This document shows positions 13,501 through 63,556 of a DNA stretch of 64,000 bases, piece after piece. The first letter of the stretch is position 1. Each line of letters starts with the position of its first letter. The position numbers were made by a program, and so were the translations under genes. Under the pieces are notes generated by a model. It ran no database searches. It was not told the DNA's origin and saw nothing but the letters and a program-made list of their open reading frames with translations. This DNA is from Liolophura sinensis (taxonomy: Eukaryota; Mollusca; Polyplacophora; Chitonida; Chitonidae). The DNA lies in assembly GCF_032854445.1 (NCBI RefSeq), contig NC_088301.1:59036512-59100511 (forward strand). Direction: 5' to 3'.

Positions 13501-16500
13501 ACCTAAGTTACTGCTTTATTTTTCTTGTATGTGCTTAAAAATTGAATGTTAGTTCAGTTAGAAAGTAAACTTTAATAATAAACATTTAAACTTAGTTTTC
13601 CAGATAATAGGCTGTTTATTGGCCCTACATAGTATTTTATTGGTATTCTTAAACAATATATTAACCATATTATCTTAGTTTAAGTTAGAACAACAGCAAA
13701 AAAGGCATGAAACTATAAGAATGAACTCATCCCTCATCATTTATGGTTTATGGAATCACAGAGCCCTCCTAATGTAACTGGTGACATTGTAGGTGAGTTT
13801 ATTGCGGTATGAGAACGGCCAGTTAGATCAGTCCTCGGTGATTCCTGTAGTTGACGGAGGAACAGAAGGGTTCAAAGGGAATGCCCGTGTAATCCTCCCA
13901 GGGATGACGGCCTGTGTGGAGTGCACACTTGACCTCTACCCACCACAAGTGAGTCCTGAATATAGTCATGTGGCAAAAAAAATTCCTTGTTTTCACTTTT
14001 CATGAGTGTAACACCAGATGTTGCATAGTTTTAATACATGTACCTCAGGGGCTCATTTTTATTCTCCACTTATTAAAAAGATTTATTTATTGTGTGGAAT
14101 TGAAGCAAATGACAAACTTTGTTTTTTGGGCTAAGGGTGGCAGCATGTGTGTTGTTGTTGTTGTTGTTGTTGGGATGGTGTTGTCTATTCAGCAGTGCTA
14201 CATATATGCTACAGCCATGTTCCTGTGTACTGTTCACTGTAAGATGAGGAATATTAAGGAGTTGGCCCAAACTTTGACGTGCATATGTATGATTTTTGAT
14301 ACCCTAATTCTTCATTCTTCTGAGAGAACTATGTAGTGTTGAGAAATATTTTGCACTGTTTTATGAAGCTTGCATCTTTATTGGCACAAAAAAATCATAG
14401 TTACTGTCATTTTCATAATGAATGTATTCATAAATTCCACTGAAAAAAAGTGCTTTAGTGGTTGAAAAGGTTGAAGATTTACAGTAATATGATTTACTTT
14501 TACTTATAGATAAATTTCCCATTGTGCACTATTGCCCACACTCCAAGATTACCAGAACATTGCATAGAATATGTGAGGATTTTGTTGTGGCCTAAGGAGA
14601 ATCCATTTGGGGGTAAGAAATACTGAAACATGGCTTGGCTATGTAGTCTCCTTTGTTAAGTTATAAATATGGAGCATACTCTTAATGTATGTTAGTGTTT
14701 AAAGACATAGTGTTTAGACTGGCATGTACAGATTAGAATACAAATTGTAGGTGTTTATAATGACATGTCAGAGGTAGAATTAATGCAGGTTGGAAGGATC
14801 TTGAAGTTTGATTACTTGTGCATGGATAAGTTAATTTTTTAAATATTTCATTGGTGTGATCAATTCCAAAAAATTAGAGCAAATTCATTATATAATGAAT
14901 TCTGGATCTCAAACAAAACAATGTCTTGTATGTATGTGTGTTTGAGGTTTTATGTCCTACTTACCATTTTCCAGTCATGTAGAGAAAGTGTAAATAGCCA
15001 GTGATGTTCCCCAAAACACTACGTGTGCCTGATATATATTTTGTAGAAGATGTGTCAATAGACGGTGATGATCCCAACCACATTAAGTGGATCCTTGAGA
15101 AGGCAATGGAGAGAGCTCAGGCTTATAACATCACTGGAGTCACCTACAGGCTAACTCAAGGTACTGTGCTGTGCCAAAAAATAGCTGACACAAGGGCTTG
15201 TGGTACACATAGTAGACCACAGTGCTGTCCTTATAAACAGCTGACACAAGGGCTTATGGCACACACAATAGGCCACAGTGCTGTCCTTATAAACAGCTGA
15301 CCCAAGGGTTTAGGTTACACACAATAGACCACAGAGCTGTCCCGATAAACAGCTGACACAAGAGCTTATGGTACACACAATAGGCCACAGTGCTGTCCTT
15401 ATAAACAGCTGACACAAGGGCTTATATACACAGTGATCCACAGTGCTGTCCCAGTAAACAGCTGACACAAGGGCTTTTGGTACACACAATAGGCCACAGA
15501 GCTGTCCCAATAAACCGCTGACACAAGGGCTTATATACACAGTGATCCACAGTGCTGTCCCAATAAACAGCTGACACCAGGGCTTATGGTACACACAATA
15601 GGCCACAGAGCTGTCCCAATAAACAGCTGACACCAGGGCTTATGGTACACACAATAGGCCACAGTGCTGTCACAATAAACTGCTGACCCAGGGGTTTAGG
15701 TTACACACAATAGACCACAGTGCTGTCACAGTAAACAACCGACACAAGGGCTTATGGTACACACAGTAGACCACAGTGCTGTCCTTATAAACAGCTGACA
15801 CAAGGGCTTATATACACAGTGATCCACAGTGCTGTCCCAGTAAACAGCTGACACAAGGGCTTATAGTACACACAATAAGCCACAGAGCTGTCCCAATAAA
15901 CCGCTGACACAAGGGCTTATATACACAGTGATCCACAGTGTTGTCCCAGTAAACAGCTGACACAAGGGCTTATGGTACACACAATAGGCCACAGAGCTGT
16001 CCCAATAAACAGCTGACACCAGGGCTTATGGTACACACAATAGGCCACAGTGCTGTCACAATAAACTGCTGACCCAGGGGTTTAGGTTACACACAATAGA
16101 CCACAGTGCTGTCACAGTAAACAACTGACACAAGGGCTTATGGTACACACAGTAGACCACAGTGCTGTCCTTATAAACAGGTGACACAAGGGCTTATATA
16201 CACAGTGATCCACAGTGCTGTCCCAATAAACAGCTGACACCAGGGCTTATGGTACACACGGCAGACCACAGTGCTGTCCCAGTAAACAGTAAAACACTCA
16301 AGGATATTCTACTTAAGTGGAGAAATGTGACCAATTTTACCTCATTGCTGAATTTTAAATCACAAGGAAACTGATTTATTAAATCACAATGTAAACTTTA
16401 CAAATTGTTCTTATTGTAGGTGTTGTGAAAAGGATTATCCCAGCAGTGGCCTCAACTAATGCTGTGATATCAGGTGAGTTCTCTGGTGATGGGATCTTTA

Positions 16501-18628
16501 CCATAGTTTTCTCCTAGCATCTTGACGTATTGACGTGGAGTGTAAATTTTGTATAAAAAAAAACACTTGGAATGTGATTTCACCCTTAATGTTTCTTTTA
16601 ACTGCGTACATGAAGTAGAGGAAGATAAGGTCTAAAGGATCAGCTCTTCCAATCCACCAGTAAATAATGTTTTCCCACTTTTTTTTTTCAGCCACATGTG
16701 CTACAGAAGTTTTCAAAATAGCATCAAGGTAAGTTCACAAGAGTCCACACGTCATGTAGCGGAGCATATTTTCTCTATACGTTTCTGTATATGTGGTATG
16801 CATTATGCGTTCACAATTTACATACAGTGTGTAGATTGGTCTTTTGTCTTACATACTGTAATTTCCGGTTATTATCAGCTGTAGTTCTCAGAATATCATT
16901 CATTATTTTTCATTTCCTGTAACTTTCATTGTTAGCTTTCACCTCGTCATCTTTATGCCTCTACCTCATGTAATGTCTAAACACTGTGTTCTTATGATCT
17001 AATAACGAATATTGTTTGTAGACAGAATATTGTGACGAGAGAACTGGTCTTATTTCAGCTGTGCTCTTCCACTAAACAACTACATGAATTTCAATGATGT
17101 TGAAGGAATTTACACATACACATTTGAAGCAGAGAAAAAGGTGGGTGATATAAAAAGAGGCAATGTTGTGTTTTTTGACAAGTATTGAAACTCGATAAAT
17201 ATCCAAGTTTATTACACATAGTACTGCATAAAGCACAGGTTATGTTTGTATTAAACCTTGACCTGTTCTTACCTGTTTCAGTGGGATGCTATTCCCCACA
17301 TAATACTTATTTTTGTTGTGTGTCAGGACAATTGTCTAGTGTGCAGCCAAATCCCTCAGACTCTGTCATTCTCAGACACAGCAAAGTTACAAGACATCAT
17401 TAATTACCTGGTGGAGTCTGCCTCGTAGTAAGTGTTTTCTACATTATTAATTATCTATATTTTACTATTATATTTTACCCTTTGTTCTGTGCCATCTGAC
17501 TAGCAAATTTAACTCTTTCACAGGTATTTATTAGGTGAAAGCAGGGTCAGTCTGGTAGTGGTTGTTTATTAAATTAACTCATTCCTAAGGGGATCTAAAC
17601 GAACACCTCCCACAACCCACTGTTTGTCACTGTACAGTGGTTGTTTATTAAATTAACTCGCTCCTAACCAGATCTAAACGAACACCTCCCACAACCCACA
17701 GTTTGTCACTGTACAGTGGTTGTTTATTAAATTAACTCGTTCCTAATGAGATCTAAGCGAACACCTCCCACAACCCACTGTTTGTCACTGTACAGTGGTT
17801 GTTTATTAAATTAACTCATTCCTTTGACTGGTTGTTGTTTGAAATTATCATGGTCAGTGGTATTTTGAGAAGTGAAGTCAGATATTTGACTGGTTGGTGT
17901 TTGAAATGATCATGCTCAGTTGTAATTTGAGAAGTGAAGTCAGATTTTTAACTGGTTGGTGTTTAGAAATGATCATGCTCAATGGTAGTTTCATACTGAA
18001 ACTGTCACCAACAGTGTATTGTGTTGTGGGCATACAGTCACTGGTTCTGTTTTTTCAAATTGTAGCAAGTGTTTAGCTAAATGAATGTTTTATAATACGT
18101 ACAAGATGGAACATCACTCCTGACAAAGTTGGACCAAGTATAATACCTGAATTCACTTTGTTTAATTTTCAGTCAGATGAAATCTCCAGGCATTGCAACT
18201 ACTGTTAATGGAAGGAACAAAACTCTGTATATGCAAACAGTGAAATCCATCGAAGAAAGGACCAGAGAAAACTTAAAGAAGACCCTGAATGGTAAGTCTT
18301 TCTCTAAGTTCCACTCTTTGAACTTGATGGACTACAATGATTTTGTAATTCAATCCTGAATCAAGTCATACCCAAGATTTCAACATCGGTAATTTTGGCA
18401 CTGCATGTTTCTCACTTGGCAGTAAGCCGTTGTGGTATGTCTGATATAATGTTGAATGATGCTAGTCCCCTATCAACAAAGTCATCGGATAATACAAATG
18501 ATATAAAATTTATTTTGTTACTTTCAGAATTGGGCCTGGTGGATGGACAGGAGCTGTATGTGGCAGATGCATCAACCCCGTCCACAGTAACATTTAAGTT
18601 ACAGCTGGGAACAGAAATGGAGAAATAA
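10509..18628 (+). CDS. UBA3: NEDD8-activating enzyme E1 catalytic subunit, 15 coding exons
   Basis: Coding exons: 10509-10604, 11467-11547, 11849-11931, 12579-12659, 12878-12921, 13426-13490, 13793-13948, 14510-14612, 15047-15160, 16420-16473, 16692-16728, 17059-17140, 17327-17427, 18173-18291 and 18528-18628. Phases agree throughout and give 438 residues, close to the family length. With its partner NAE1 the enzyme adenylates NEDD8, forms a thioester and passes NEDD8 to UBE2M for cullin modification. Visible motifs are the nucleotide loop GAGGLG (47-52), [11 protein letters not shown], zinc cysteines 191/194 and 335/338, the catalytic Cys208 in [16 protein letters not shown], and [15 protein letters not shown]. 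The C-terminal ubiquitin-fold domain (from about 350) ends [17 protein letters not shown]. The start is the first ATG of its exon (AGACATGG context). All key residues are intact. Introns carry a minisatellite beginning directly after the 15160 donor. Confidence 0.97.
10622..10658 (+). repeat. Poly-T/poly-G homopolymer tract
   Basis: A run of about 22 T is followed directly by about 13 G, 18 bp after the splice donor at 10604/10605 in a UBA3 intron. The sequence is prone to length error in assembly and could form a G-rich structure in the transcript. Confidence 0.8.
11200..11286 (+). mobile_element. SINE family 1, 3' fragment
   Basis: A truncated copy in a UBA3 intron keeps only the 3' end: the CTGGCCGC block, ATATTCTTGAGTACGGCG, TAAAACACCAATCAAATAAA and an A-rich tail. 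It matches the ends of the fuller copies at 21004 and 46018. Confidence 0.75.
15165..16290 (+). repeat. Minisatellite, ~57-bp units with higher-order pattern, in UBA3 intron
   Basis: About 20 units contain CAGCTGACACAAGGGCTTA, a GGTACACACAATAGGCCACA-type block and GTGCTGTCCC. Two unit types alternate, a longer one with GGTACACACAATAGG and a shorter one with TATACACAGTGATCC, which creates multi-unit higher-order repeats. The array starts within a few bases of the exon donor at 15160 and runs to about 16290, 130 bp before the next exon. Open frames read through it are artefacts. Confidence 0.92.
17555..17822 (+). repeat. Tandem repeat, ~79-bp units (about 3.4 copies)
   Basis: Units contain GTGGTTGTTTATTAAATTAA, CTAAACGAACACCTCCCACA and GTTTGTCACTGTACA. 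The array lies in the UBA3 intron between the exons ending 17427 and starting 18173. Confidence 0.85.
17824..17995 (+). repeat. Tandem repeat, ~61-bp units (about 3 diverged copies)
   Basis: Three diverged units of the form TTGACTGGTTGGTGTTTGAA, ATGATCATGCTCAGT, TTTGAGAAGTGAAGTCAGAT follow directly after the 79-bp array in the same UBA3 intron. They are unrelated to it in sequence. Confidence 0.75.
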
Positions 18629-32300: not shown

Positions 32301-35300
32301 AATAAGCCCAAACTTATTAGACTGCAGCATTGTCGTTTTTGCACATAAAGTTGCACTACTGCTTTAACCACCTTTCAGGTCTAAGTCAAAACATTTTAAC
32401 AATTTCACACTGGATAAATAAATGTTCGATGGTTTCCTTTTCTTTGTTACAGATCACAAACGTCATCATCTTTTCTGTCAATTTTGTACAGCTAAGATTT
32501 TATAAAACATATCAGGTGCAAAATTTATTATTGAAAATGTCTAAATTTTATGTATCTAGTACTTTCGAAGAGAGATAAGAAAATACTTTTCACATTAATA
32601 TCATTTAGCTGTGAGATATGCTCCCATTTACTTAGTATTTGTGTATCACAGTCACTGGCGTCTAAAATATCATAAAAAACATGTGTGCCTCACTTCTGCT
32701 TAAATAGAATGTTGTAGTACACAGGATAGGCAGCTGAAAGCACGTCTGTATTCAGTTTTATATCAATTAGCCACTCCTTTAGTATAATTTTTACTTATTT
32801 ATTGTAATCTAAAAATATACTTTTTGTTCCATATTTGTCCTTAACGCCTTTAAAATTTATAATGTCCCTAATATACAATATCTTACTTTTATACCAATTT
32901 TGAATGAAGTACGATGGGTTTTTAAAATTTGTGTGGCACCATAAGTGTTCATCCAATATTTTTCTTGCTGTTTTATTTTGATTTTTCCACACAAACTTCC
33001 CAACATTCGAGTGTTTCAATCCAAAAGGGTTTTTAATTGTCTGTACAATGTCTTGGATGTATCTACCTCCAAGGCTCTTCAACTTATCCGAGTGTACAGG
33101 TGTAATCAAAATTTTTGGCCAGTTATTTTCTTCAAAAACCAGCTGTTTCACCCATGTTATTTTTAAAGAAAGGCATAAGTAAAAATCATCCTTAGATCCC
33201 CATAGGCGTAATCTTTTGTTATAGTCGACATCTTTATCCTATCTGGCCCATCACTCCAAAGAAATTTATAGAGTAAACTGCTAATTTGTTTTTAAACATA
33301 CAACGGTGGATGATGGTTTCTTAATCTTCACTTTTGTAACTCTAGTTTTAATTCCTCTATTCTTCCAATATAGTTAGTTCTCCATATGCTGTTGAGAACT
33401 GAATACCTAGTATGTTTGGTTCATTCCCCCAGTCCAGCTTTACCTCCTGGCATAGTTTTAGACACCCAGACAAAGAGGCTATGTATCACTAGGTCCATAC
33501 AAACTACACACAGTTACAGGTACTTCATGTATCACTAGGTCCATATAAACTATACACAGTTACAGGTACTTCATGTATCACTGTCTATACAAACTACACA
33601 CAGCTACAGGTACTTCATGTATCACTAGGTCCATACAAACTATACACAGTTACAGGTACTTCATGTATCACTAGGTCCATACAAACTATACACAGTTACA
33701 TGTACTTCATGTATCACTAGGTCTATACAAATTATACACAGCTACAGGTACTTCATGTATCACTAGGTCCATACAAACTATACACAGTTACAGGTACTTC
33801 ATGTATCACTAGGTCCATATAAACTATACACAGTTACAGGTACTTCATGTATCACTAGGTCCATACAAACTACACACAGTCACAGGTACTTCATGTATCA
33901 CTAGGCCCATACAAACTATACACAGTTACAGGTACTTCATGTATCACTAGGTCCATATAAGCTATACACAGCTACAGGTACTTCATGTATCGCTAGGTCC
34001 ATACAAACTACACACAGTTACAGGTACTTCATGTATCACTAGGTCCATACAAACTACACACAGTTACAGGTACTTCATGTATCACTAGGCCCATACAAAC
34101 TATACACAGTTACAGGTACTTCATGTATCACTAGGTCCATACAAACTATACACAGTTACAGGTACTTCATGTATCACTAGGTCTATACAAACTACACACA
34201 GCTACAGGTACTTCATGTATCACTAGGTCCATACAAACTATACACAGTTACAGGTACTTCATGTATCACTAGGTCTATACAAACTACACACAGTTACAGG
34301 TACTTCATGTATCACTAGGTCCATATAAACTATACACAGTTACAGGTACTTCATGTATCACTAGGTCCATACAAACTATACACAGTTACAGGTACTTCAT
34401 GTATCACTAGGTCTATACAAACTATACACAGCTACAGGTACTTCATGTATCACTAGGTCCATACAAACTACACACAGTTACAGGTACTTCATGTATCACT
34501 AGGTCCATATAAACTACACGGAGTTACAGGTACTTCATGTATCACTAGGTCCATACAAACTACACAGAGTTACAGGTACTTCATGTATCAATAGGTCCAT
34601 ATAAACTATACACAGTTACAGGTACTTCATGTATCACTAGGTCCATACAAACTATACACAGTTACAGGTACTTCATGTATCACTAGGTCCATATAAACCA
34701 TACACAGTTACAGGTACTTCATGTATCACTAGGCCCATACAAACTATACACAGTTACAGGTACTTCATGTATCACTAGGTCCATACAAACTGTACACAGT
34801 TACAGGTACTTCATGTATCACTAGGTCCATACAAACTACACACAGTTACAGGTACTTCATGTATCGCTAGGTCCATATAAACAATACACAGTGACAGGTA
34901 CTTCATGTATCACTGGGTCTATACAAATTACACATAGTTACAGGTACTTCATGTATCACTAGGTCCATATAAACTATACACAGTTACAGGTACTTCATGT
35001 ATCACTAGGTCCATACAAACTGTACACAGTTACAGGTACTTCATGTATCACTAGGTCCATATAAACTATACACAGCTACAGGTACTTCATGTATTGCTAG
35101 GTCCATACAAACTACACACAGTTACAGGTACTTCATGTATCACTAGGTCCATACAAATTACACACAGTTACAGGTACTTCATGTATCACTAGGTCCATAT
35201 AAATTATACACAGTTACAGGTACTTCATGTATCACTAGGTCCATATAAACTATACACAGTTACAGGTACTTCATGTATCACTAGGTCCATACAAATTACA

Positions 35301-38300
35301 CACAGTTACAGGTACTTCATGTATCAATAGGTCCATATAAACTATACACAGTTACAGGTACTTCATGTATCAATAGATCCATATAAACTATACACAGTTA
35401 CAGGTACTTCATGTATCACTAGGTCCATATAAACTATACAAAGTTACAGGTACTTCATGTATCACTAGGTCCATACAAACTATACACAGTTACAGGTACT
35501 TCATGTATCACTATGTTTATACAAACTACACACAGTTACATGTACTTCATGTATTACTAGGTCCATATAAACTATACACAGTTACAGGTACTTCATGTAT
35601 CACTAGGTCCATATAAACTATACACAGTTACAGGTACTTCATGTATCACTAGGTCCATATAAACTATACAGTTACAGGTACTTCATGTATCACTAGGTCA
35701 TATAAACTATACACAGTTACAGGTACTTCATGTATCACTATGTTTATACAAACTACACACAGTTACATGTACTTCATGTATCACTAGGTCCATATAAACT
35801 ATACACAGTTATAGGTACTTCATGTATCACTAGGTTCATATAAACTATACACAGTTACAGGTACTTCATGTATCACTAGGTCCATACAAATTACACACAG
35901 TTACAGGTACTTCATGTATCACTAGGTCCATATAAACTATACACAGTTACAGGTACTTCATGTATCACTAGGTCCATATAAACTATACACAGTTACAGGT
36001 ACTTCATGTATCACTAGGTCCATACAAATTACACACAGGTACAGGTACTTCATGTATCAATAGGGCCAAAATTGCCAAGTGGATTGATATGTACGTTTTT
36101 TATTTTGTAATCAAAGTTTTGATTGATCAGTGTGATTATACCTCTAGAGTGAGAGCAAAGGTGGCTAACCCTATTCCTTTAACACTTCTTGTAATAGTTG
36201 AAAATATCATGTCTTTTTTTTTTTTTTTTGCAAGTCATAGACAGTTCATCGAGATTATATTTACTCTTTCAGCCATTTCACATTTTGTAGAAGGTTAAAG
36301 TGGTAAAATATTTGCCATTTACATTTTGTTCCCCTTTTCCTTTAGGTATTAACTTTGATATATTGTCCTTAGTTTTTCATTTTGTGTTAATATGGTGTGC
36401 TTTACAGATGTGAGTTTTTCTCCTTTTTACCTAGAATCACACATTCACAGCTGTCCCATGTCCCATTCATTTCTTCATTTATAGTCCTGCAATCCCAGTG
36501 ATAGTGGAACATGATAAAATTAGTGTCTTCATATTGGTGAAATCTGTATATCATTAAATTTAATTGTTTTACAGTTCTCATTAAGTCATATGTTCATTTT
36601 TAAATTAGGTTCAAAGCAACAATATAATTACAGAACTTGTCCTCTTTATGTTAATACAAAGATATTGGGTGAAAACTATTAATATGGTATGAGCATATAC
36701 CAAATTGGTATAGGCTACAGTCCCAATCTTCCTCACGATTGTCCTACATGACAGTTAACTAAGACAGCATTATTCACGTAGTTAAGTAATGATGTTTTTA
36801 GAGGCTGCCATGCAAGTTACAGTTGTAATAACATACTATGTGGTTAGTTACAAGACCCAGTGGTGCGTGGTATATGGGACGACAAACTAATCAGGTCATC
36901 AATACAGGTCGGCGATCTCATCTGTCTTATGTGGTTGGTAAAGTTCTTTGCAAAAATCTTTCCATCACATGACCAAGCATAATGGATCATTGGATGAGCT
37001 GATGTGCCTTTCAGTAAATTATGATTTTTCGGTGTCCAGTCTTTTATAACGATGTTGGATCCCTATAAAGCCCTTCTAAATTTCATGACTTCAGCCTTAT
37101 GTCGTCGAGATGTGAACTTGACTATGACCCTTCTTGGTTTTGAACCTAAGTCCGGTCTCAATTTTCTGTTCTGTTTTCTCCAACTTTTCTCACCTGTGAC
37201 CATAGAGTTGAGTTTATTCTTTATGAGCGGCAGCTGATCCAGGCTTTGTACCTCACTGGACGATCCTTGATCCCCTTCCTGGATGTTGCTGATGTTTCGT
37301 CCATCCTGCTTTGTGCAGATAATTCCCCTCTTCGGCGTTTTTTTATGTTGTGGCATAAGTTGGAGTTGTTTTAGAAACACCCCTGAATACATATGGGACA
37401 AATACTGAAGGCTCAGGTTTATGTTTCAGTTGAATACTGGGTTTCGTCAATGCCACATGTAAGAATCCAGTGGAGATACTGGTTTGGCTACATCTGAAGC
37501 CTGTGCAGTTGTGTAGTATTCTTATACAAACTACCCCCCATGTATTACCTTGTTAGAGCGAGCAATTGGGGAGAGGGGGAGGTATGTGTTGTCACATAGG
37601 TTCATGATGTGCTTATGGTAATTTGCCTCACGACTGTATATACGTCATATGTAAGGGGTTGATCGGAGCTGTCTACAGCCGCCATGTTTTTAATTTTGCA
37701 CCTTCCTTGAAATTCTTAATGCACTGCTGTGTACATGTGAAAGATTGTATGAAGGTGGTAAACAGGTGCAAGTGTAGAATATTTATTCCAAGTAACCGGG
37801 AAAATGTGAATTTTGAGCCTGCAGAAGACGTGAAAATAGAAAATGGTGTTGTTGCTGGACTGGTTATAAAAAAATAAAAAAGGGACTAAGAACGAGAACA
37901 CAATCATGCTCAAGTGCACTTGTAATACAAAGCTTAACATCAAAGTCATCTCTTTATATCATTTCCAGAAGGACATCTGAGCCAAAAATGCTTGTTGATA
38001 TGGAGTTTAGAGAGGAGGTGAAATTCCAACATCCGGATTACATGTCAGACAACGGTACAGTCCTTGGGAGCACAGAGTTGTACTCTGAATCATTGCCTTG
38101 CAAGTTTTCACCACATGGCAGAGAACATATATTATCACAAGCAACTTTCCCTCCCTCTGTCTACTCCTCGGGCCTTAGGAGAGCACAGGGTGCAAGTAAG
38201 AAGAGGTTTAATTTTCAAGTGTTAAAGGAGGTTAAATGCCATTAAATGGTCTCTGAATTTTTCATAAAGATCTGTACTTGCAGACAAATGATTGATGTGT

Positions 38301-45688: not shown

Positions 45689-47808
45689 CAATATGTACAT
45701 GTACAATAACAGTATATTCATAAACAAATACAACTATACTGACGTTCAAAAGAAGCGATACAAATATCATTTTAACTTGTTTCATTTGGAACCTCTGTTC
45801 ATGTGTCTTTGGGTCACTGTTCATCGAGTCACTGAGTTTCATCTGGTTCACCCCATCCTAAAACATCGCTCTGTTGAATACATATCTTTTGCATATGCAA
45901 CGTGTGATTGTTTTTGTTCAGTCGTCTCTAAAAGCCGTGGTAACTTTCTTTTTGACGTCAGTATATTTGATTGATATTTAACTCAAGCTAATCCTAAACC
46001 AGTAGTAATTCTGAACGGGGGCCTCCGTGTCTCAGCTGGTTAGCGCGCTACCCAGAAGCCTCTCACCAATGCGGTCGCCGTGAGTTCAAGTCCAGCTCAT
46101 GCTGGCTTTCTCTCCGGTCGTACGTGGGAAGGTCTTCCAGCAACTTGCGGATGGTCGTGGGTTTCCTCCGGGCTATGCCCGGTTTCCTCCCCCATAATAC
46201 TGGCCGCCGTCGTATAAGTGAAATATTCTTGAGTACGGCATAAAACACCAATGAAATAAATAAATAAATAAATAATTGGGAATGAATACGTCACCTTATT
46301 TCTGATGTCTGTTTTGGCACCATTTTCTAGGAGTTTAACAGCCACTTGTAGCCCATTTGTGTAATCACCTCGATGAGCGATCAGATGCAGCGCGGTGTCC
46401 CATTCGGAGATCGTGACGCCATTGACGTCAACTCCGTTGTTCAGGAGAACGTCAATGACGTCTTCAATGTCAGGTCGGTCACTGAGCACTGCCACATGCA
46501 ATGCACTGTAACCAAGCTAATTAAATTGGACGAAATCGTCGGAGAATTACAAATGATTTTGGAATTGTACATCTAACAATGGCATCGAAGTAAAACTATG
46601 AAGTAATTAACTGATTTCAGTATGTAGGTAGGCTAAACATGTAACATTGAGAGGCAAATAAAGTGTTAAGCGTATTACTTTATACTTCCACGTTCATATT
46701 TTGATTCTCAGTTAAGTTTAATCAAAATCATTATCTGACATAATATATTGCAAAAATAAGTTAGGAAATAGAACTATACGAATGATCGACTTTTTGATGG
46801 GCTTACAGAGTTATGGTCCTTCACTTTGGAGACATCAGCACAGTTGTTCTCAATGTCTTGAATACTCCCCTTTGCACAAGCTATGAAGAGGTCATCCTGT
46901 GAACATTAAACAGATAAAAATATAAAAATCAGTGTATAGCTATTATTTAGTAATACATTGGGTATATCAGGTTTGACCAGTAGAAAACACCCCTTATTCA
47001 CTTTTATACGAGTGATTTTTACAAAGAAAGCCGAAGAGCTGGTGTCTAAATGTCAGACGATTACACTTTCATGTTTGGGGTCTAAAGGTCCGGTGATATC
47101 ACTTTTATACATTGGGGTCTAAATGTCAGGTGAGTACACTTCTATGGATTTGGTCTAATGCCAGTCGAGTACACTACCATGGGTAGGGTCTAAGGGTCTA
47201 CTTTCAAATAATGGGATCTAAATGTCACGCAGGTTCACTTCCACGCTTTGGGTCTAAATGTCGAAGGAGTACACTTCCACGGTTGGAGTCTAAATATCAC
47301 GAGAGCAAACTTCCACACCTGGGTTCTAAATGTCGGTTGAGTACATTTCCACGGTTGGGGTCTAAATATCAGGGGCCGCTTGCACGTATTGGGACCTAAA
47401 TGTCAGGCGAGTAGATTTCCACGGTTGGGGTCTAAATGCTAGGCATGTTCACAAATATACTGCCCACGGCCCAATTTTACAATGGTATGCATGTACGGTA
47501 AACGCACATATATATCGGACAACAGTACGGTCATAGTGACATTCTAAATATCGTACGACAAATGTACGATGAAAAAATGTCGTACGCCGCTTTGTAAAAC
47601 TGTGACCTGTAGTGTTTCTGTTGTAGTACACGCCATTTGACAAGGATCGTAGGGGCTTGTAGGAACATACTATTCCTTGACTGGGGACGCTTTAAATTTC
47701 TCTCTAGCTTTATATGAACTATATTCAAATGTTTACCTCTCCCCTGCGTCCAATGAAGTCTGCTTCCGTCAACTGCCCATAAATACCGTGGGGTGGAGAA
47801 ACCGTCAT
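39493..47808 (-). CDS. Ankyrin-repeat protein with C-terminal polybasic CaaX motif, 12 exons
   Basis: Exons: 47808-47737, 46896-46807, 46516-46295, 44841-44713, 44399-44310, 43928-43821, 43062-42943, 42185-42045, 41292-41218, 41084-40971, 40234-40136 and 39624-39493, giving 463 residues. All lengths are multiples of three and all introns are phase 0. Several exons hold ankyrin-type helices: YSALHVAV..VDVLLNNGVDVNG (about 57-95), TALHLIAHRG, GAVHYAVTHCK, TALNLVVKT..YLLSNGADV, KNTALHVAVKNN..LLKYGA. Exon 8 (278-324) is a Pro-Glu-rich linker of PEP repeats, followed by an acidic exon (SAEEEEDILEP). The protein ends KKKSSTCAVM, a lysine cluster plus CaaX box with final Met, the signal preferred by farnesyltransferase. 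The start is chosen because the exon 1 frame MTVSPPHGIYGQ runs open into exon 2. I do not recognise a named orthologue. It is probably a cytoplasmic or membrane-anchored scaffold. Confidence 0.85.
41342..41582 (-). mobile_element. SINE family 1, full-length minus copy
   Basis: Starts (as read on the plus strand) with ATTTATTTATTTATTTGAGT, GGTGTTCTACGCC and ends with tRNA-like GCGCGCTGCC-type sequence. It contains the reverse of the AGCAACCTGCGGATGG and GTTCAAGCCCAACTCATGCT blocks. It lies in an intron of the ankyrin gene, in sense with it. Confidence 0.85.
42705..42775 (+). mobile_element. SINE family 2 tail fragment
   Basis: Only the 3' end is left: GACGCATATGACTGAAAAAT, GTAAGTATGTAAACCCAAGC, ATACAAACATAC. 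It is in an ankyrin-gene intron. Confidence 0.6.
44411..44489 (+). repeat. (TA)n microsatellite
   Basis: About 39 TA units end 11 bp before the acceptor of the ankyrin exon at 44399 (minus reading). They therefore lie in the branch-point and pyrimidine-tract zone of that intron. Confidence 0.95.
44863..44998 (+). repeat. ~75-bp direct duplication
   Basis: ACGAGGCGACACGTGAATGA, ATTGGCAACAGCGTTG is repeated as ACGAGGCGACACGTGAAGGA, ATTGGCAACAGTATTG, spaced about 73 bp apart in an ankyrin-gene intron. Confidence 0.8.
45605..45687 (+). repeat. (TA)n microsatellite
   Basis: About 38 TA units with small CTATAT interruptions at the left end. Open frames through it (runs of YI) are artefacts. Confidence 0.95.
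46018..46277 (+). mobile_element. SINE family 1, full length
   Basis: The head is GGCCTCCGTGTCTCAGCTGG, TTAGCGCGCTA with B-box-like GAGTTCAAGTCC. The body is AGCAACTTGCGGATGG..GGGTTTCCTCC, CTGGCCGCCGTCGTATAAGT and the tail GAGTACGGCATAAAACACCA, ATGAAATAAATAAATAAATA. It ends about 18 bp from the ankyrin exon boundary at 46295, inside the intron. Confidence 0.93.
47030..47450 (+). repeat. Diverged minisatellite, ~37-bp unit, ~11 copies
   Basis: The unit is roughly GGGGTCTAAATGTCAGGCGA, GTACACTTCCACGGTT. Copies are diverged, with indels in several. It occupies intron 1 of the ankyrin gene. Confidence 0.85.
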
Positions 47809-54286: not shown

Positions 54287-56798
54287 TCAGATAGGATTAT
54301 TTCTGATTCCCACTCTTTCTGTAAAGCGATCTAGGAATGCTCCAAGTCCAGTAGATTGTGTACCATATCTAACGCTGATCTTATTGGCATATGCATTGCT
54401 AAAAAGTCTCCAAACATTATTAAGTCTCTGCCATCGCACACTGACATCTTCTTCTGTGACTTCACTGCATCTGTGAACATCACATAAATATTGGCTTTTT
54501 AAAGCTGGGGACATCAAATAAATGCTAATAAGATATGTGTTATACCCTATCAACAAATAATAATCAAAAAAGAACAGAAAATTTGAAGACTTTGTGAGAA
54601 ACTTAAGTCACTAAATGCCACAAATAAATCCACAAAAGATAACTTACAATTAAAAAGAAAGGGGGCAAAAGTAGGTAAAAAAATTTATTAATGTCATATC
54701 TTCATGCATTTAAAAACTGCAAAGGCTCTGTTTGGGTTGAGTTGATGACGTGATGACTGCTGGATTTCAGCCAATGAATAATAACATAACTATTTGAGTG
54801 GTAAATACATCAGTCAAGCCATCAACAGCAACAAGGCAGATGGACTGCAAATTAGCAAGTAACAAAGCCTTAATTGTCTTCATATTTTCTCGCCCTACTT
54901 CTTGAGCTCTGTTGGAGCTGTCTACTAAAAGAAATAACGGTAATATTAAAAAGCTGTTCCTGCTGCTTAGTACACTGCGAGAAGCAAATACTGTAGAAAG
55001 AAATGCAACAATCCTGATGTAAAGTTGCAATGAAGTGAAAGAAAATAAAATTTTAGCTCTGCTGAAGCAAGTCAGGCAAATTCATAATGCTTGCAAATTA
55101 TTTTGTTCAACTACATACTCTACAGAAACTGATGTTCAGATAAACATGTGAGAAAATTAAAAATAGGTAACCAAACTTTTCTCAAACACTGGGTTTGGTT
55201 GGCAACAGCCCCCCCTCCCCCCCCCCCCACCCCCATTTTTCCAACTTGTATTCCGTGTCTTTTCTCATATCATCAAATAATTTTAAAATCATTTTTGAAA
55301 TGCCATCCTTGAATGGATACTGCCGAGATATACAATACGCTCAATAGTTCCACTCCCCTCCCCCCCAACCAAAAAAACACACTCCCTATTTTAACTGTAG
55401 AAGACAGAAAACAAAAATGTAATGGCACATAATGGTTAACTTATAAAATCACAGTTTCCCATAAAACTGCTGAATTTTTTATTTAGTTAATTCTGCCATT
55501 ATGTCCGAGTTTAATTGTCTGATATGCATGAAGTGTTTTTTTCTGTATGTCTTTTATGACCATGGAATCTCCAGTAAGCTGATATTTATGATAATAATGC
55601 AATGTAATTGTCACTTACGAACTAGTATGGCTTGACCGTCTAGAACTAAGGTAGAGCTCTGCCAGAGAGGATGGATCACATGAGGTACCGTGTAACAATG
55701 AAAAACCACCAATACCCTCCGACCCAGAAATAATCTGCCAACTTTACAACAAAACAGAATTTTAGCAATGTTTATCCTCAACCAGAGAAAGTTACGAAGC
55801 TTTTTCTGTCTGTTGTGCAGGTATTTTTTAATACACATGTAAAATTGTAAGGGTACACTATTAAATATATTTCACCAAATAGTGTGCTTTTGTTTCACAA
55901 ACATATCCGAGTCATTCCAGTTCCTCAAATGCATGGTTGGAGAAGCTCAGATTTTAGAATCAAAGGCCATACTGGATTGAAGAGTGAACTCAAGCAGCTG
56001 TTATTAGAGGCAGTTAGTAAGACATGTTAAACCAACAGTGAAGACAACACATACAAGCGACATGCGATGAAGCTGTTAAACATCCATGCTCTTATGTATA
56101 ACAAAACACAAGATATTCTGAGGTTGTTAGCTATTTTCCCCAGAAGTATACATGTTTTAGTACCATACATACAGGTAATGTACAGGTGTAACTAGGAGTT
56201 TGATAACAAGTAATATTTTATTATCTGCATAGATTAACTACATGCCAAGACCTATAGACTGGTTGTGAGTTGTACATCTAAACTCTATCCATTATCACTC
56301 TATAAACAACACTGATGCAATGTTATTAGGAATAATATTCAAAATCAAGCCATATTAGGCAACCCAATTTAACAGGTTTGTTTAATATTACCATGTAATA
56401 TTGCCAACAATTTTAGAGTCCATTAGTTCATTCTACCTGTAAGGACATCCTAACACAATTAAAAACAAATATTCTGAAAGAAAAAGGCCAGTTTAAGAGT
56501 ATCAACCAAAAATACATGGAAAGTTACATGTATCTTGCCTTATACTAAATTTTTCGCCATTCATCTTTTCCAGGTATAATAAGAGAATTAATTGCATTTA
56601 CCTGCCCGAGACAGGTGACTGTGAAGTGACGGCTTCTGTGTTTCGGATACGGTTAATTGGTACCGGCATGGGACTGGAAGAGGAGGAGCTGGATGGAGCA
56701 GAGTAATGGGCTGATAACTCTGCTGGAACTGAACCAACGTGCCCAGCTCTCTTCATGTTCAGCTTCAAGGATCTTTGAGGGTAGTTTGGACAAAAGCA

Positions 56799-56863
<65 letters not shown>

Positions 56864-59800
56864 AGATGAAACACAAGAAAAAATTCAGGTGAACCCAAAA
56901 CATATCCCAGTATATTACTACTTTTCTTTATTTAGCAGATATACGGTAGATACTGGTAAACTGGTTACCATGGCAACTGCAGAAAGGTGTGAGAAATCTT
57001 CACCCTATGTCCATGAATCCACCAAAAGTTAAAGTTGTAGTCTGTTTCCATAAATAAAACTGACAGCTGTGGTCGAAGCCAAAGATTCTTGGGTACAGTG
57101 TTAAACACCAATAACATAAATAAATGTATATTTACACTGTATATATACTGGCAATCTGTTTACCATAACAACAACAGAAACAGACAAATGTGAGATCAGA
57201 CACATCCTCTGTTTCTATGTATCCACCTAAAACTAAATCAGTACACTTAAAACAATTTTTTTTTTTCAGACATACCTTGAAGTACTTATTATTCGCTGGA
57301 ATCTATTTTCGCGGATTTTCTCCCAAGAAATGTTCGCGTATTTAAGAGAATACTTAAAAACAGATCTTAAAATTTTCCAAGATAGAATATGGCCAGAATT
57401 ATTCAACCACGTAAACCAGGTATTGTCATGGGTGGATCTAATCCTCCTTTGTTTCCTGTGGTGTCCCTAATCCTCGTGATCTGGATCAGAGATTAAAACA
57501 ATGGGGGATGGATTATCACTATGTGAGATTACTTTCGCACCTACTGTGAGCAGTACTCAAACAGGTGTCACTTCTTTTCGAATCAGTCACTCATTCTTTA
57601 TCAAGCAACAGGGTAAGTTTTGCATTGTTTTCCATTTTAATCGTCCTCTGTAGCAGGTCAGAAGCCGCAAAAATTGCCGTAGCTGTCAAATGGCCATTGT
57701 GTTGTTGCACACACTTAACAGTTTGTTAGAAGCTCAATCATTAGACATTCATCAGAAGCCAACAAGTGCTGGTATCTACTCTTCTTTCACTTAACAGGCA
57801 TAGCGAAGACTGATCAAACTAAAGACGATTAAACTCCCACTTTGTTTTATACCCACCAAGCCTTAGCACCAGAGTTTGTATATATCTAAGCCATAACTTC
57901 CCCTCCCTGGTGTTTAAAAATTTAGCTGGCAACTCCCTTCACCCTGGCAAAGGTTTCACTTCATTAAAACTATTATCTGTAGTTTATGATTCAATACTGG
58001 ATATTTTTTTCACTGGAATTATTTTTCACGGTAAATTATTGACAGCGAAATCTGCAAAAATTAGTTCCACGTGAATATTAAGTACCTCACAGTATTCACC
58101 TGAATGACAGACATATAACAAGTGGAGCAAAAACTGATAATATTTTGGCACCAGAGGTGAGAGAGAAAGTAAATTTAGATATCGTACCCATTTGTTAAGG
58201 CTGGCTCTATATTAGTTGGGGTGATTCCAAGGGAGCCAGTATCGAGCCCCATGCTGCCCCCAGTGTCTATTCCACTGCTCCCACTGTTTAGACTGCTGTT
58301 GCTACTTGTATGACTGCTGATCACATGGCTGTCAGAGTCTGGAAATAAACAGAGATATGAACATAAAATAACTACAGAATATGACACTGGCTTTTTCCAG
58401 GGCTGGGTGGTCTACTAGCTTGTAAAATTAACTTGATCTTCCAGCCACTGAGCAATACCAGTCTGGATCTCAAAGTCAAGGTATTACCAAATAAGTACTG
58501 GTTATCATTCTGCACAACAAAGTATGAAATCTTACCAAGCAAGATGCCATCTATGTGACAGTCTGTCTCTGAAATATTTGATGCCTGAGATCCTTTCCTA
58601 TCAAAAATAAAACAAGGGTTCACATTGTAAATGTGAACTGTATGTATGTATGTATGCTTGGGGTTTAACGTTGTACTTCACAATGTTTCAGTCATATGAC
58701 GACGAGGAGTCATTAGATGCATGTACATATACTGTGTCTTCTTGTGGCGGGGGGAGTCCATGTCGGCAAAGTGCTGCCGTCACTGAAGTATCATGCAGAG
58801 GACACAAGATATGACACCAGGCCAACAAGTCATGTTTCCTTGCTCTAACCTCTCAGTGCTGGATGCCAAGTGGGGCAGCAGCAAGAACAGTTTTTAAAAA
58901 CATGCATTGTAAACACACCATCTACAAAACCACAGTAGAAATTTGTGTAGTCAATCCTAGTGATTAACATTATATTAAACCCTTAGCATCAGTTAATCAG
59001 ATAGGGAAGCTAAAATGGTAATTCTTATTGAAAAACTTAAGTTTATATTATATTTTAATAAATTTCCCTTGACATAACCACTACATTTCAGATCATTTTG
59101 TTTCTACCATAATGAGTGAAACAACTTACCCTACTTATTTTCCTGGAAAAGTTCAAGCCAATATATTACAATGCATGCAGTTTGAAATTTCTGCTTACCG
59201 TTGCTTCATGTTTGGTGTTGGAGTTCTCTTAAGTGAGAACTCCTCAGATGCAATGAATTTCAAAAAATGGAAACAGAAATAGAGAATCTGTAACAGATAA
59301 AAAGATGAACAAATCCAGATATAATACACTTGTGTTATACACAAGAATACTTACAAACATCCTATGCCATCTTTCAAACTACTTCCATGAAATCTATCAC
59401 AACTGTTGCACTTACATTTAGATTAAATGTAAATATGTTCTAAATTAATGAATAAATGCTTGACAATGTTGATATTGATGAAGTCTGAGTTGTACCTCTT
59501 CTCCCTTTTGCAATCTATCTGTCAAATCATGACTGAAAAAAAAGAGAATAGAACCACGGTTAATGAATGCTTCAATATATTTGAAAAAAACTTCCCTTGA
59601 CCTTCAACTTTTTAAAGAGAACAAAGACAACAAAGATTGAAAAAAGTAAACAATATGTAAAATATAAAGACCACATTATCTACATGTACTGAAACACTAT
59701 GATTACAATATTCAGTGAAGAAAAATACATCAGAAGTGCATCAAAAAATAAAAAAAAATAATAAGAAAATCCTCGAGCTCCTTTTCATTGTATAAACATG

Positions 59801-62800
59801 GATGCTTCAGCAATGTATTATAATGTTATTTATAATATTTACCCAAACAGAAACCAGTCGTAAGCAATGGTGAGGTATAAAATCTCAGTGGCTGAGAGGG
59901 ACTTGTGTATTAATCCATCTGCCCACAGACTCAGCCTCAGCAGAGACACAAACATGGGGGTGCGGTCCCACCCAGAGATACAGTGTACCAACACACCCTG
60001 ATTACCTGAAACAGAAACAAGTCAAGAGCCTCAGCAGAGACACAAACATGGGGGTGCGGTCCCACCCAGAGATACAGTGTACCAACACACCCTGATTACC
60101 TGAAACAGAAACAAGTCAAGAGCCTCAGCAGAGACACAAACATGGGGGTGCGGTCCCACCCAGAGATACAGTGTACCAACACACCCTGATTACCTGAAAC
60201 AGAAACAAGTCAAGAGCCTCAGCAGAGACACAAACATGGGGGTACGGTCCCACCCAGAGATACAGTGTACCAACACACCCTGATTACCTGAAACAGAAAC
60301 AAGTCAAGAGCCTCAGCAGAGACACAAACATGGGGGTGCGGTCCCACCCAGAGATACAGTGTACCAATACACCCTCATTACGTGAAACAGAAACAAGTCA
60401 CAAGCCTCAGCAGAGACACAAACATGGGGGTGCGGTCCCACCCAGAGATACAGTGTACCAATACACCCTCATTACCTGAAACAGAAACAAGTCACAAGCC
60501 TCAGCAGAGACACAAACATTGGGGTGCGGTCCCACCCAAAGATACAGTGTACCAACACACCCTGATTACCTGAAACAGAAACAAGTCATAAGCCTCAGCA
60601 GAGACACAAACATGGGGGTGTGGTCCCACCCACAGATACAGTGTACCAATACACCCTGATTACCTGAAACAGAAACAAGTCACAAGCCTCAGCAGAGACA
60701 CAAACATGGGATGCGGTCCCACCCAGAGATACAGTGTACCAACACACCCTGATTACCTGAAACAGAAACAAGTCACAAGCCTCAGCAGAGACACAAACAT
60801 GGGGGTACGGTCCCACCCAGAGATACAGTGTACCAACACACCCTGATTACCTGAAACAGAAACAAGTCAAGAGCCTCAGCAGAGACACAAACATGGGGGT
60901 GTGGTCCCACCCAGAGATACAGTGTACCAACACACCCTGATTACCTGAAACAGAAACAAGTCACAAGCCTCAGCAGAGACACAAACATGGGGGTGCGGAC
61001 CCACCCAGAGATACAGTGTACCAACACACCCTGATTACCTGAAACAGAAACAAGTCACAAGCCTCAGCAGAGACACAAACATGGGGGTGTGGTCCCACCC
61101 AGAGATACAGTGTACCAACACACCCTGATTACCTGAAACAGAAACAAGTCAAGAGCCTCAGCAGAGACACAAACATGGGGGTACGGTCCCACCCAGAGAT
61201 ACAGTGTACCAACACACCCTGATTACCTGAAACAGAAACAAGTCAAGAGCCTCAGCAGAGACACAAACATGGGGGAGCGGTCCCACCCAGAGATACAGTG
61301 TACCAATACACCCTGATTACATGAAATGGAAACAAGTCACAAGGCTAGTATATTTTCTTTGTCTGACTGAACATTTGTATTCATAAACATTACACTGGCT
61401 AAAACTCAGTACATCATCAATTCAGCATTACCTTAAAATTCTTTATGTCAATATTTTCTAATTTATTTGTCATAGATTAAAACACATACATCCCAGGAAA
61501 ATATTCTTTACATCTTAAACACAATGTCAGACTTACCTTCATGAAGAAGATGTAACAACAGCTTCACATAATTCTGTGTTAATTTCAACAGGTTCCAGTT
61601 CTGCCAAACAAGAAGACAAACCATGGTGTGTGTACATTTTGAAGATTCCGTGTGAATTTCCTTAAATATAAATCTTAAATACAATGCACTTGAGTTCTTC
61701 TTTTCAAAACTGTTATGAATTACTTTTTACATGCCAAAAAAAAATACACAGGAATGTCAATTTCCTTTAAACATTACATGTTGTGCAGACGCAAATATTA
61801 CCCCAACAATAATCAGGCGATACACACTAGTCTTTTCTAGTATTAACATCCATGCAGTTTTTATTAATCGATCATAACAATACATTAAGGTTTACAACAA
61901 AAGGAGTAATGAACTCAGTCCTACCTTATACTTGTTCCAGTCAACTCCCAGCTTTTCCATAAGGGGTATAGGTGGGATGTCAAGACATGCATCAACATAA
62001 CCCTGTTGACAAAGGCAAGAAAAGTATAAACATTTCTTTAATTAGTCCTACTTCTTTCTTAACAATGAACTGTCCTGGTTTTATTTCTCACTTTACCTAC
62101 CTGAATGGTATACCTGTGATATAGCAAAAAATTATGAAAACAAAAAAATGCATCTGATGAGTTGTAGAGATTAAAAATATAATTAACACTAAAAATTGTG
62201 AGAAAAAAAACTCACATCGTTTGTGTGCCCTTGAATGGCGTTAGTATGCCAAATATGTGTGATGTAACACTAGTACTCCAGTTTAGAAGCGCAATGTTGG
62301 CTACATTGGATTTGATTCACGTTTTTTGACAGGAAAACTGCTTTTTTGCCCAGGAATGTTGAAAATAGTAGGTACTGCTTCAACCATCGTCAGATTCTTT
62401 TACCGAAAACCAAACCTCAGCAGGTATCTTACAAACTTATAACATGCTTACCTGGCTCCAATCGAAAAGAACATGATCTGTTTCATAACCACTATCTTTC
62501 CACTTTCTGAAGAATTCACAGCCTATTGAATGAAAGCAAGACTATGAACAAATATTTAACGATAGTAAGAAACAACAATGAAATACAAATAAAATGCAAA
62601 AGCAACGAGACACTGAAATTCTTGTCACATTAATCTGTCATATGATGCACGAACATAAGAAAAGACCAAGTTAAAAATACACATGTATGTGAAAAGATGT
62701 TCTATTATCTGTATAATTACTTTCAGTATCACAAACCTGGGTATGGAACTGAAAAGATGTCAAAATCATTATATCGTTGCTCCTTGTCCACTTTTTCTGA

Positions 62801-63556
62801 GGACGTTATACTGAAACAACAAACATTTAAAACATATGTAAAATCAAGTCTACTTAGTTAAAATCATCTTTTTTCTGATCACAGCTACTAGCTGGCTACT
62901 GACAAACCGCCGGATGACCCCAGACCATCCACTGACTGACCATAAACAAACCACTGGCTGGAGGTACTGCTGAACACAGCCAAACCATAGCTGGGTACTG
63001 GCTGACAAACCATTGGCTGGCTACTGGATGACCACTGACAAACTACTGACTTACACACCATTGGCTGGCTACTGGATGACCACAGACAAACTACTGACTG
63101 ACAAACCATTGGCTGGCTACTGGCTGACCATAGACAAACTACTGACTGACAAACTATTGGCTGTCTACTGGCTGACCACAGACAAATCACTGACTGGCTT
63201 CTGGCTCACAAGAAAAAAAACAAATAGCTGGCTACCAGTTCACCACTGACTCGTTATTAAAATGGTCCTATAGCTTGGTTGTTATTTGTGGTGGTTAAGA
63301 TACAGGTGGATCTTAATTAAACTGTGATAAGATATTATACCCATTCCTACAAAGTGAAAATAATACTCCACTTGCATTCAATAAAAATGTAAGTTTTAGA
63401 AAAAGAACTCTTTTCATTTTGATATTCAGAAGAACTCACTTCATGCCAAATTTGACTTTCTTTTTCTCTACCATTAGATCACATATGTATCCCACATTAA
63501 GGGTCTTTAGAAGCTGTATATCTTGGCCTCTCACACGGTTGTACAGCTGCCAATCA
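54287..63556 (-). CDS. MTMR14: Myotubularin-related phosphatase 14, 3' portion, 12 exons (5' end outside window)
   Basis: Exons: 63556-63440, 62810-62737, 62522-62452, 62002-61925, 61600-61537, 60005-59843, 59532-59496, 59287-59199, 58597-58536, 58338-58188, 56772-56602 and 54464-54287, with consistent phases and about 418 codons. The enzyme removes the 3-phosphate from PI3P and PI(3,5)P2 and affects autophagy and muscle Ca2+ handling. Family landmarks are VRGQDIQLLKTLNVGYICDL, FGMNITSSEKVDKEQRYNDF, the P-loop VLVHCISGWDRTP with catalytic Cys and Arg intact, LSLWADGLIH, ILYLTIAYDWFLFGHD, IASEEFSLKRTP, a Ser-rich tail, and the end LGAFLDRFTERVGIRNNPI, which matches the conserved MTMR14 C-terminus. 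The protein diverges from the family between residues coded by 58597 and 56602. Upstream exons lie beyond 64000. The catalytic exon is preceded by a tandem array derived from itself. Confidence 0.94.
55209..55231 (+). repeat. C-rich homopolymer tract
   Basis: CCCCCCCTCCCCCCCCCCCA-type run in the last MTMR14 intron. On the gene strand it reads as G-rich. Confidence 0.85.
56801..56859 (+). repeat. (TA)n microsatellite
   Basis: About 29 TA units starting 28 bp upstream (gene sense) of the MTMR14 acceptor at 56772. Confidence 0.95.
57068..57126 (+). mobile_element. SINE family 1, 3' tail fragment
   Basis: Retains GTGGTCGAAGCCAAAGATTC, TTGGGTACAGTGTTAAACAC, CAATAACATAAATAAATG in an MTMR14 intron. 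Confidence 0.55.
58643..58905 (-). mobile_element. SINE family 2b, minus partial copy
   Basis: On the plus strand it begins with the reverse tail GCTTGGGGTTTAACGTTGTA, CAGTCATATGACGACGA and continues TGTGTCTTCTTGTGGCGGGG, GTCATGTTTCCTTGCTCTAA, TGCCAAGTGGGGCAGCAGCA. This matches the 28797 copy without its head. It lies in an MTMR14 intron, in sense. Confidence 0.8.
60006..61335 (-). repeat. 94-bp tandem array derived from the MTMR14 catalytic exon and its acceptor (~14 units)
   Basis: Each unit, read on the gene strand, is intron tail plus acceptor (TTGTTTCTGTTTCAG) followed by the first ~63 bp of the catalytic exon. That stretch covers GTAATC, the codons for VLVHCISGWDRTP and the start of MFVSLL. 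The true exon (60005-59843) is the gene-proximal member and the only one continuing into LSLWADG. Spacing is 94 bp (one unit is about 2 bp shorter). Two sub-types differ at AAGTCAAGAG / AAGTCACAAG. In the gene's reading frame, entering any upstream copy runs into AGG TAA at the next unit boundary. Copies near 60380 and 61317 have lost the AG. Confidence 0.95.
62885..63245 (+). repeat. Minisatellite, ~48-bp unit with 12-24-bp sub-periodicity
   Basis: Units of the form ACCATTGGCTGGCTACTGGA, TGACCACAGACAAACTACTG, ACTGACAA repeat about seven times with degenerate edges. It lies in the MTMR14 intron between the exons ending 63440 and starting 62810. Open frames on both strands (WSASSQPMV-type and AGYWMTTDKLLT-type) are repeat artefacts. 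Confidence 0.9.

Follow-up and report, generated by a model that had tools for sequence, protein, structure and literature searches.

Results

A tandem array repeats an intron-exon boundary of MTMR14

The locus examined here, in the chiton Liolophura sinensis, raises the question of how a phosphatase gene is spliced when the intron preceding its catalytic exon carries 14 additional copies of its own 3′ splice boundary. The copies lie in a 64-kb window (the whole stretch of DNA that was analysed), whose minus strand holds 12 coding exons of the gene (54287..63556) separated by GT-AG introns, with more upstream exons past the window end. The gene had been predicted to be MTMR14, and this is confirmed by the joined exons, which match the NCBI L. 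sinensis record for myotubularin-related protein 14-like isoform X2 with a listed identity of 100% over 100% of 420 aa (the first residue of the query is padding and reads D where the NCBI record has N). The joined product contains a myotubularin-like phosphatase domain (Pfam). The annotated L. sinensis MTMR14-like protein has a length of 586 aa; at the protein level, chiton MTMR14 carries GNQG at a position where most named mollusc records have GD, the exceptions being Potamilus, Bulinus and Biomphalaria.

The real catalytic exon (59843..60005, minus strand) is 163 nt long, starts with GTAATC and leads into its own donor TGG|GTAAAT. It encodes HCISGWDRT, as expected from the original prediction that the repeated exon is the catalytic P-loop exon. 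On the upstream side of the array, the preceding exon (61537..61600) ends at AAG|GTAAGT. Between these two exons, as defined by the annotated protein, lies the intron that holds the array (60006..61536; 1,531 nt), and this protein agrees with a direct splice from 61537 to 60005, with one intron at the array site. Another MTMR14 intron (62811-63439) contains a 48-bp array of approximately four copies (62996-63196) that lies away from the splice sites.

Tandem Repeats Finder reports one 94-bp array at 59933-61343, with 15.0 copies, 96% matches, 0% indels and a score of 2556. The start of the catalytic exon is found 15 times on the minus strand, from 61320 down to 60005, at spacings of 94 (n=13) or 93 nt (n=1), the shorter unit (60664..60756) having a 1-nt deletion. 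Fourteen of these copies are upstream of the real exon, in line with the predicted number of about 14, and the last copy is the real exon's own start. The copies are arranged head-to-tail, and each consists of the first 73 nt of the exon followed by approximately 21 nt that match the end of the preceding intron. Homology of the units to the real exon ends at exon base 73 (position 59933), so the earlier claim that exon sequence and acceptor are repeated together is upheld, whereas the 63 bp given for the exonic part must be revised to 73 bp. Because each unit joins an exon start to an intron end, the CAG|GTAATC boundary is recreated at unit-unit junctions. Tandem repetition across an intron-exon boundary is a defining feature of the ‘mirage’ minisatellites of amphioxus, and it is present here as 15 copies of a 94-bp unit.

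Most unit boundaries carry abutting acceptor and donor signals

The sequence AG|GTAAT is kept at 13 of the 15 boundaries. These are the real boundary and 12 decoys of the form CAG|GTAAT[C/G] (60099..61227, minus strand), which were located by boundary reading, donor scoring and a motif scan. The first bases of the decoys are 61226, 61132, 61038, 60944, 60850, 60756, 60663, 60569, 60475, 60287, 60193 and 60099. The acceptor AG is lost in the other two of the 14 upstream copies: the edge copy has a degenerate acceptor, CAT|GTAATC (61320..61343), and the boundary at 60381..60382 reads CAC|GTAATG. Thus, an acceptor that directly abuts a donor-like GTAAT, which had been proposed for every boundary, is found at all but these two. 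AG/GT signals on the copies are expected of a mirage, and AGGT at unit boundaries is expected of dual-specific arrays of the human UBC type; 13 of the 15 boundaries have them.

In the pre-mRNA sense, an intact boundary comprises a pyrimidine tract, CAG and GTAATC, or GTAATG at decoy 60475. The real acceptor (60006..60026) also has a branch-like TTGAC motif ahead of its pyrimidine tract and CAG. This motif is present 16 nt before the unit end in seven of the 14 units, and its position is occupied by GTGAC in six of the others and by ATGAC in one; six of the 12 decoys are without the TTGAC of the real site. All 14 upstream units start with GT and 13 of them end with AG, so 13 of 14 are complete GT-AG introns.

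Across the 64-kb window, the minus strand has 14 YAG|GTRA motifs with a pyrimidine tract, 13 of them in the array, and the plus strand has three, none of them inside the array. Among 200 simulated stretches of 1,411 nt, the mean number was 0.04 and the maximum was 1, and the motif density in the array is therefore not due to chance. The recursive-site motif Y5N0-4YAGGT was matched at 13 array sites, each with a juxtaposed acceptor and donor. Judged by its sequence, the array layout is that by which a ratchet point is defined (PMC8605326, PMC10156609).

Donors of this chiton gene were scored with an approximate human weight matrix, which gave values from 2.81 to 12.45 for the 11 donors of the gene in the window, the highest belonging to the upstream exon (61537; 12.45). 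On this human matrix, the AG-bearing array boundaries score 7.27 or 7.34 as donors, and the donor rebuilt after a splice from the upstream exon scores 7.10 (7.18 with GTAATG), above four of the gene's 11 donors. By the same human matrix, the rebuilt donor competes at decoys with a downstream donor of 7.27 (7.10 versus 7.27) and at the real exon with that exon's own end donor of 4.86 (7.10 versus 4.86).

Leaving the array aside, the real exon (59843-60005) has a start donor that exceeds its end donor (7.10 versus 4.86 on the human matrix), as in annotated recursive exons, which tend to be skipped. Published work on recursive exons describes a similar arrangement (PMC8605326, PMC6224609).

The copies are nearly uniform and show no coding constraint

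The last three copies are identical across the 94 compared columns, and the edge copy (61320) is the most diverged, with 86% identity to the last. Homogenised inner copies beside a diverged edge are a further feature of mirages. Mean identity is nearly flat with copy separation (range 0.926 to 0.962 when copies 1 to 13 units apart are compared), a pattern as in an array that is turning over. Six decoys equal the real site from 31 nt upstream of the boundary to at least 42 nt downstream, and decoys 60193 and 60099 do so over all 94 compared columns. The real acceptor shares its variant CTTGAC with six decoys, and the edge copy shares CTTGTGAC with five other decoys, so sequence exchange within the array has probably involved the real boundary.

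Within their coding part, the 14 upstream copies show 3 synonymous and 7 nonsynonymous distinct substitutions, compared with 43 and 143 possible (the deletion was left out). The catalytic R of the CX5R motif is replaced by H in three copies, and the preceding D by V in one. These substitution counts, together with the changes at catalytic residues, indicate that the copies do not evolve under coding constraint. Selection on the splice signals was considered and rejected, since the block from −19 to +5 has 1 of 24 variable columns versus 10 of 70 elsewhere (hand count, edge copy excluded), a difference that is suggestive at best.

The left array edge reads AGCCTTGTGAC and the inner junctions read AGGCTTGTGAC, AGGCTTATGAC or AGGCTCTTGAC. 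These sequences point to an initial duplication that joined a short AG[C/G]CT repeat.

Use of a decoy would truncate the protein

The prediction that use of an upstream copy truncates the protein agrees with our models, in which all 12 read-through uses of decoys do so. The stop is at the predicted AGG TAA in 10 of the 12 cases; it is at ACG TAA for decoy 60475 and occurs earlier for decoy 60756 because of the 1-nt deletion. When read-through and single-unit exon inclusion are modelled together, truncation results in 24 of 24 cases, and six or seven exon junctions follow the stop. Units of the UBC array can be kept in frame, whereas all 12 single-unit inclusions in the chiton gene truncate. 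Modelled skipping of the real exon, which would join 61537 to 59532, also truncates the protein. As a general rule, mRNAs with junctions downstream of a premature stop are degraded, and decoy mRNAs that stop early would probably undergo nonsense-mediated decay.

We searched for a decoy-isoform protein with a 333-aa query, which yielded 573 proteins among 990 candidates with lengths of approximately 183-582 aa, a range that ends just short of the annotated 586-aa protein. None of the best 120 of the 573 matches is near-identical to a decoy isoform, and the top match is 62% identical, a result that is a weak negative.

Other features of the window

A second candidate mirage was a 56-bp array (15166-16289), which was examined for derivation from the UBA3 exon end at 15160 and was rejected when 114 of 500 mononucleotide shuffles scored at least as high as the real sequence. 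This array has approximately 20 copies and starts 6 nt past the exon end of the gene, which encodes the NEDD8-activating enzyme E1 catalytic subunit on the plus strand. Two adjoining arrays with units of 79 bp and 62 bp (17557-17991) lie between apparent exons of UBA3. A 46-bp array of approximately 56 copies (33481-36068) has CAG|GTACTT in most units of the parts that were read, an AGGT series without a good pyrimidine tract. The minus strand also contains an ankyrin-repeat coding segment (46097-46516) and a PRA1-family-like segment (6091-6417), the latter with a Pfam score of 27.6, below the curated cut-off of 30.1.

Discussion

A tolerated minisatellite is the favoured explanation

Taken together, these features make it rather probable that the array is a mirage-type minisatellite that is mostly tolerated, with splicing that ends in the normal mRNA and mis-splices that can be removed. 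A segment comprising approximately 21 nt of intron end and 73 nt of exon start would have been duplicated in tandem, probably at the AG[C/G]CT repeat present on both ends. Amplification and homogenisation by unequal exchange or conversion would have followed, with the real exon included. If a decoy acceptor were taken, the junction donor and the later acceptors would remain, and the wrongly kept sequence could be spliced out later. Every route that ends at the real acceptor would give the same mRNA; routes that stop early would introduce a premature stop and probably lead to nonsense-mediated decay.

A mis-splice would be removable because the exon starts with GT, which makes 13 of the 14 upstream units GT-AG introns. 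This removability may be the reason that such an array is tolerated directly before a catalytic exon. The array itself most likely does little, and it would have no selected function.

Two considerations weigh against this explanation. First, the product with which it agrees is a predicted one, and the name ‘isoform X2’ implies that a sister isoform of the predicted MTMR14-like protein exists. Second, the rebuilt donor exceeds the real exon's own donor (7.10 versus 4.86 on the human matrix), and simple donor competition therefore predicts that the real exon is skipped. Since the rebuilt donor outscores that exon's own donor, inclusion of the exon needs some repression outside the donor-score model, and this repression would hinder self-correction at the decoys too. 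In mammals, the exon junction complex represses rebuilt donors and holds recursive exons in, whereas no such effect is reported for Drosophila cells (PMC6224609). If valid in chitons, donor repression would hinder recursive ratcheting as well.

Alternative explanations

The strongest alternative, which we nevertheless regard as unlikely, is that the intron is strictly removed in one step and the decoys are never used. The real acceptor would be picked by exon definition, as only it precedes the full 163-nt exon with enhancers and a proper donor. This proposal is consistent with the direct junction of the annotated protein, with the search for decoy isoforms (none near-identical among the best 120 of 573 matches) and with the absence of the branch-like TTGAC from half of the decoys. 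Furthermore, conventional lariats outnumber recursive ones in human introns shorter than 1,000 nt (PMC10156609), although the intron here has 1,531 nt. Strict avoidance of decoys is more difficult to reconcile with the six that match the real site on both sides of the boundary, two of them over all 94 columns, and with the fact that decoys are transcribed before the real acceptor. Moreover, 11 of the 12 decoys are followed at 93-94 nt by a donor that scores 7.27 or 7.34, above the 4.86 of the real exon, and decoy 60475 is followed by one that scores 3.0 (human matrix).

A recursive-splicing ladder, in which the intron is removed stepwise via its AG|GTAAT boundaries and each boundary serves as a zero-length ratchet point, appears improbable. 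The Y5N0-4YAGGT motif at 13 boundaries speaks for it, as do rebuilt donors that rank above four of the gene's 11 (human matrix) and the presence of another donor 93-94 nt past each unit, as a recursive exon needs. However, intronic ratchet points generally have the stronger donor (PMC8605326), whereas the rebuilt donor here does not exceed its usual downstream competitor (7.10 versus 7.27, human matrix). The intron is also short for this mode of splicing, which is associated with long introns, though a human study reports recursive lariats in introns from 0.2 kb (PMC10156609).

The real exon itself provides a further argument. It opens with the same donor as the decoys and is still kept in the annotated protein. 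Copy-specific changes aside, the donor rebuilt at a decoy is identical to the one rebuilt at the real exon, both across the entire upstream exon and downstream as far as exon base 73. Efficient ratcheting is thus disfavoured, because the same donor would then cause skipping of an exon that the annotated protein retains. The distance to the next acceptor does differ, being 93-94 nt for most decoys and approximately 470 nt for the real exon, and this difference leaves room for ratcheting at the decoys. We hold it equally improbable that a ladder of 12 dual-specific sites is truly used, with the intron cleared at random in multiples of 94 nt, errors erased by the next splice and array length setting the truncated share. 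In that case, MTMR14 output would be a variable-number-repeat trait in chitons.

Even less likely is a dosage device in which decoy use turns a constant fraction of transcripts into poison isoforms, so that the amount of active phosphatase depends on array length. All 12 read-through uses truncate, with six junctions downstream of each stop, and this layout is of the type that leads to decay. The coding part of the units is without constraint, however, the conservation of the splice block (1 of 24 versus 10 of 70 columns) is unconvincing, and no poison-isoform protein appears among the best 120 of 573 matches.

An assembly artefact or a wrong copy number is highly improbable: near-identical repeats can misassemble and the assembly is 14× HiFi, but many copies can be told apart by their variants, the contig on which the protein is annotated equals scaffold_3 of the published HiFi assembly in length, and the mean read length of 8.3 kb is, at that coverage, enough to span the 1.4 kb array (PMC11068029). 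The PacBio HiFi assembly of that study, whose reads are deposited as SRX20411988, was first labelled L. japonica and was later corrected to L. sinensis (PMC12441733).

Comparison with known repeats at splice boundaries

In its anatomy, the chiton array belongs with the mirage minisatellites of amphioxus, which two reports describe in Adh3, the globin genes BflGb6 and BflGb9 and troponin C, and in imperfect form in PGBD5 (PMC3087553, PMC3902484). In those accounts, the repeats span an intron-exon boundary and AG/GT is present on many, though not all, of them, as in the chiton, and boundary copies left out of homogenisation are listed as a further likeness. In BflGb6, as in chiton MTMR14, the repeat combines an intron's 3′ end with the 5′ part of the exon that follows; the two BflGb6 haplotypes have six and three units. 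Normal mRNA splicing is reported there to be unaffected by the Adh, troponin C and globin mirages, and Adh3 data and globin RT-PCR suggest that regular splicing is undisturbed. The chiton array differs in its mollusc host, its 94-bp unit, its position at a catalytic exon and its 14 extra copies, compared with the six and three of the BflGb6 haplotypes.

A tandem array of dual-specific AGGT sites that is used is described for human UBC by Duan et al. (PMC10809524). Regular AGGT sites bound the units in both cases, and each unit could in principle serve as exon or intron. As described there, a UBC unit has 228 nt, is coding and leaves the reading frame intact, and RT-PCR demonstrated that the units are used, whereas the chiton units are 94 nt, intronic and truncating if kept. 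In line with the removability considered here, Duan et al. also argue that expansions of AGGT-containing repeats do less harm since splicing can remove the added sequence.

Recursive splicing, as represented by Drosophila Ubx and kuz and by mammalian recursive exons, likewise involves an acceptor that abuts a donor and a donor rebuilt after the first splice (PMC8605326, PMC6224609). The introns in those examples are long and contain one or two ratchet points, whereas the chiton intron has 13 motifs in 1.2 kb.

In intron gain by tandem duplication, as for ATP2A1 and potato RdRp, a duplicated AGGT-containing segment makes GT-AG units, and such a segment is present in the chiton gene. Unlike those cases, the chiton array is inside one intron, and the annotated product has no new intron in its mature exon-intron structure. 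The human IFI6 (6-16) minisatellite supplies repeated splice donors. It is similarly a minisatellite from a splice boundary, though it differs in being on the donor side and in having a short unit.

Implications

Mirage-type arrays are already known, and what the chiton locus adds is a mollusc host and a higher copy number. Among the open-licence papers matched by our searches, we found no report of a splice-boundary array of this kind in molluscs, and the locus would extend the amphioxus phenomenon to this phylum. It sets 12 upstream copies of a 3′ splice site against the real one in cis, and the gene has many animal relatives. The array is thus a natural test of three models of how splice sites are chosen: first-come, exon definition and stochastic multi-step selection. 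A 150-base read over the junction and the 73 shared bases separates use of the real site, after which the sequence continues with GAGTCTG, from use of a decoy, after which it continues into CTTGAC or CTTGTGAC. Liolophura RNA-seq is public for five tissues as samples SAMN35319765-SAMN35319769 (PMC11068029).

The locus may also point to a more general rule. Arrays of 3′ boundaries would be expected to survive chiefly in front of exons that begin with GT, since the repeated units are removable introns only in that case.
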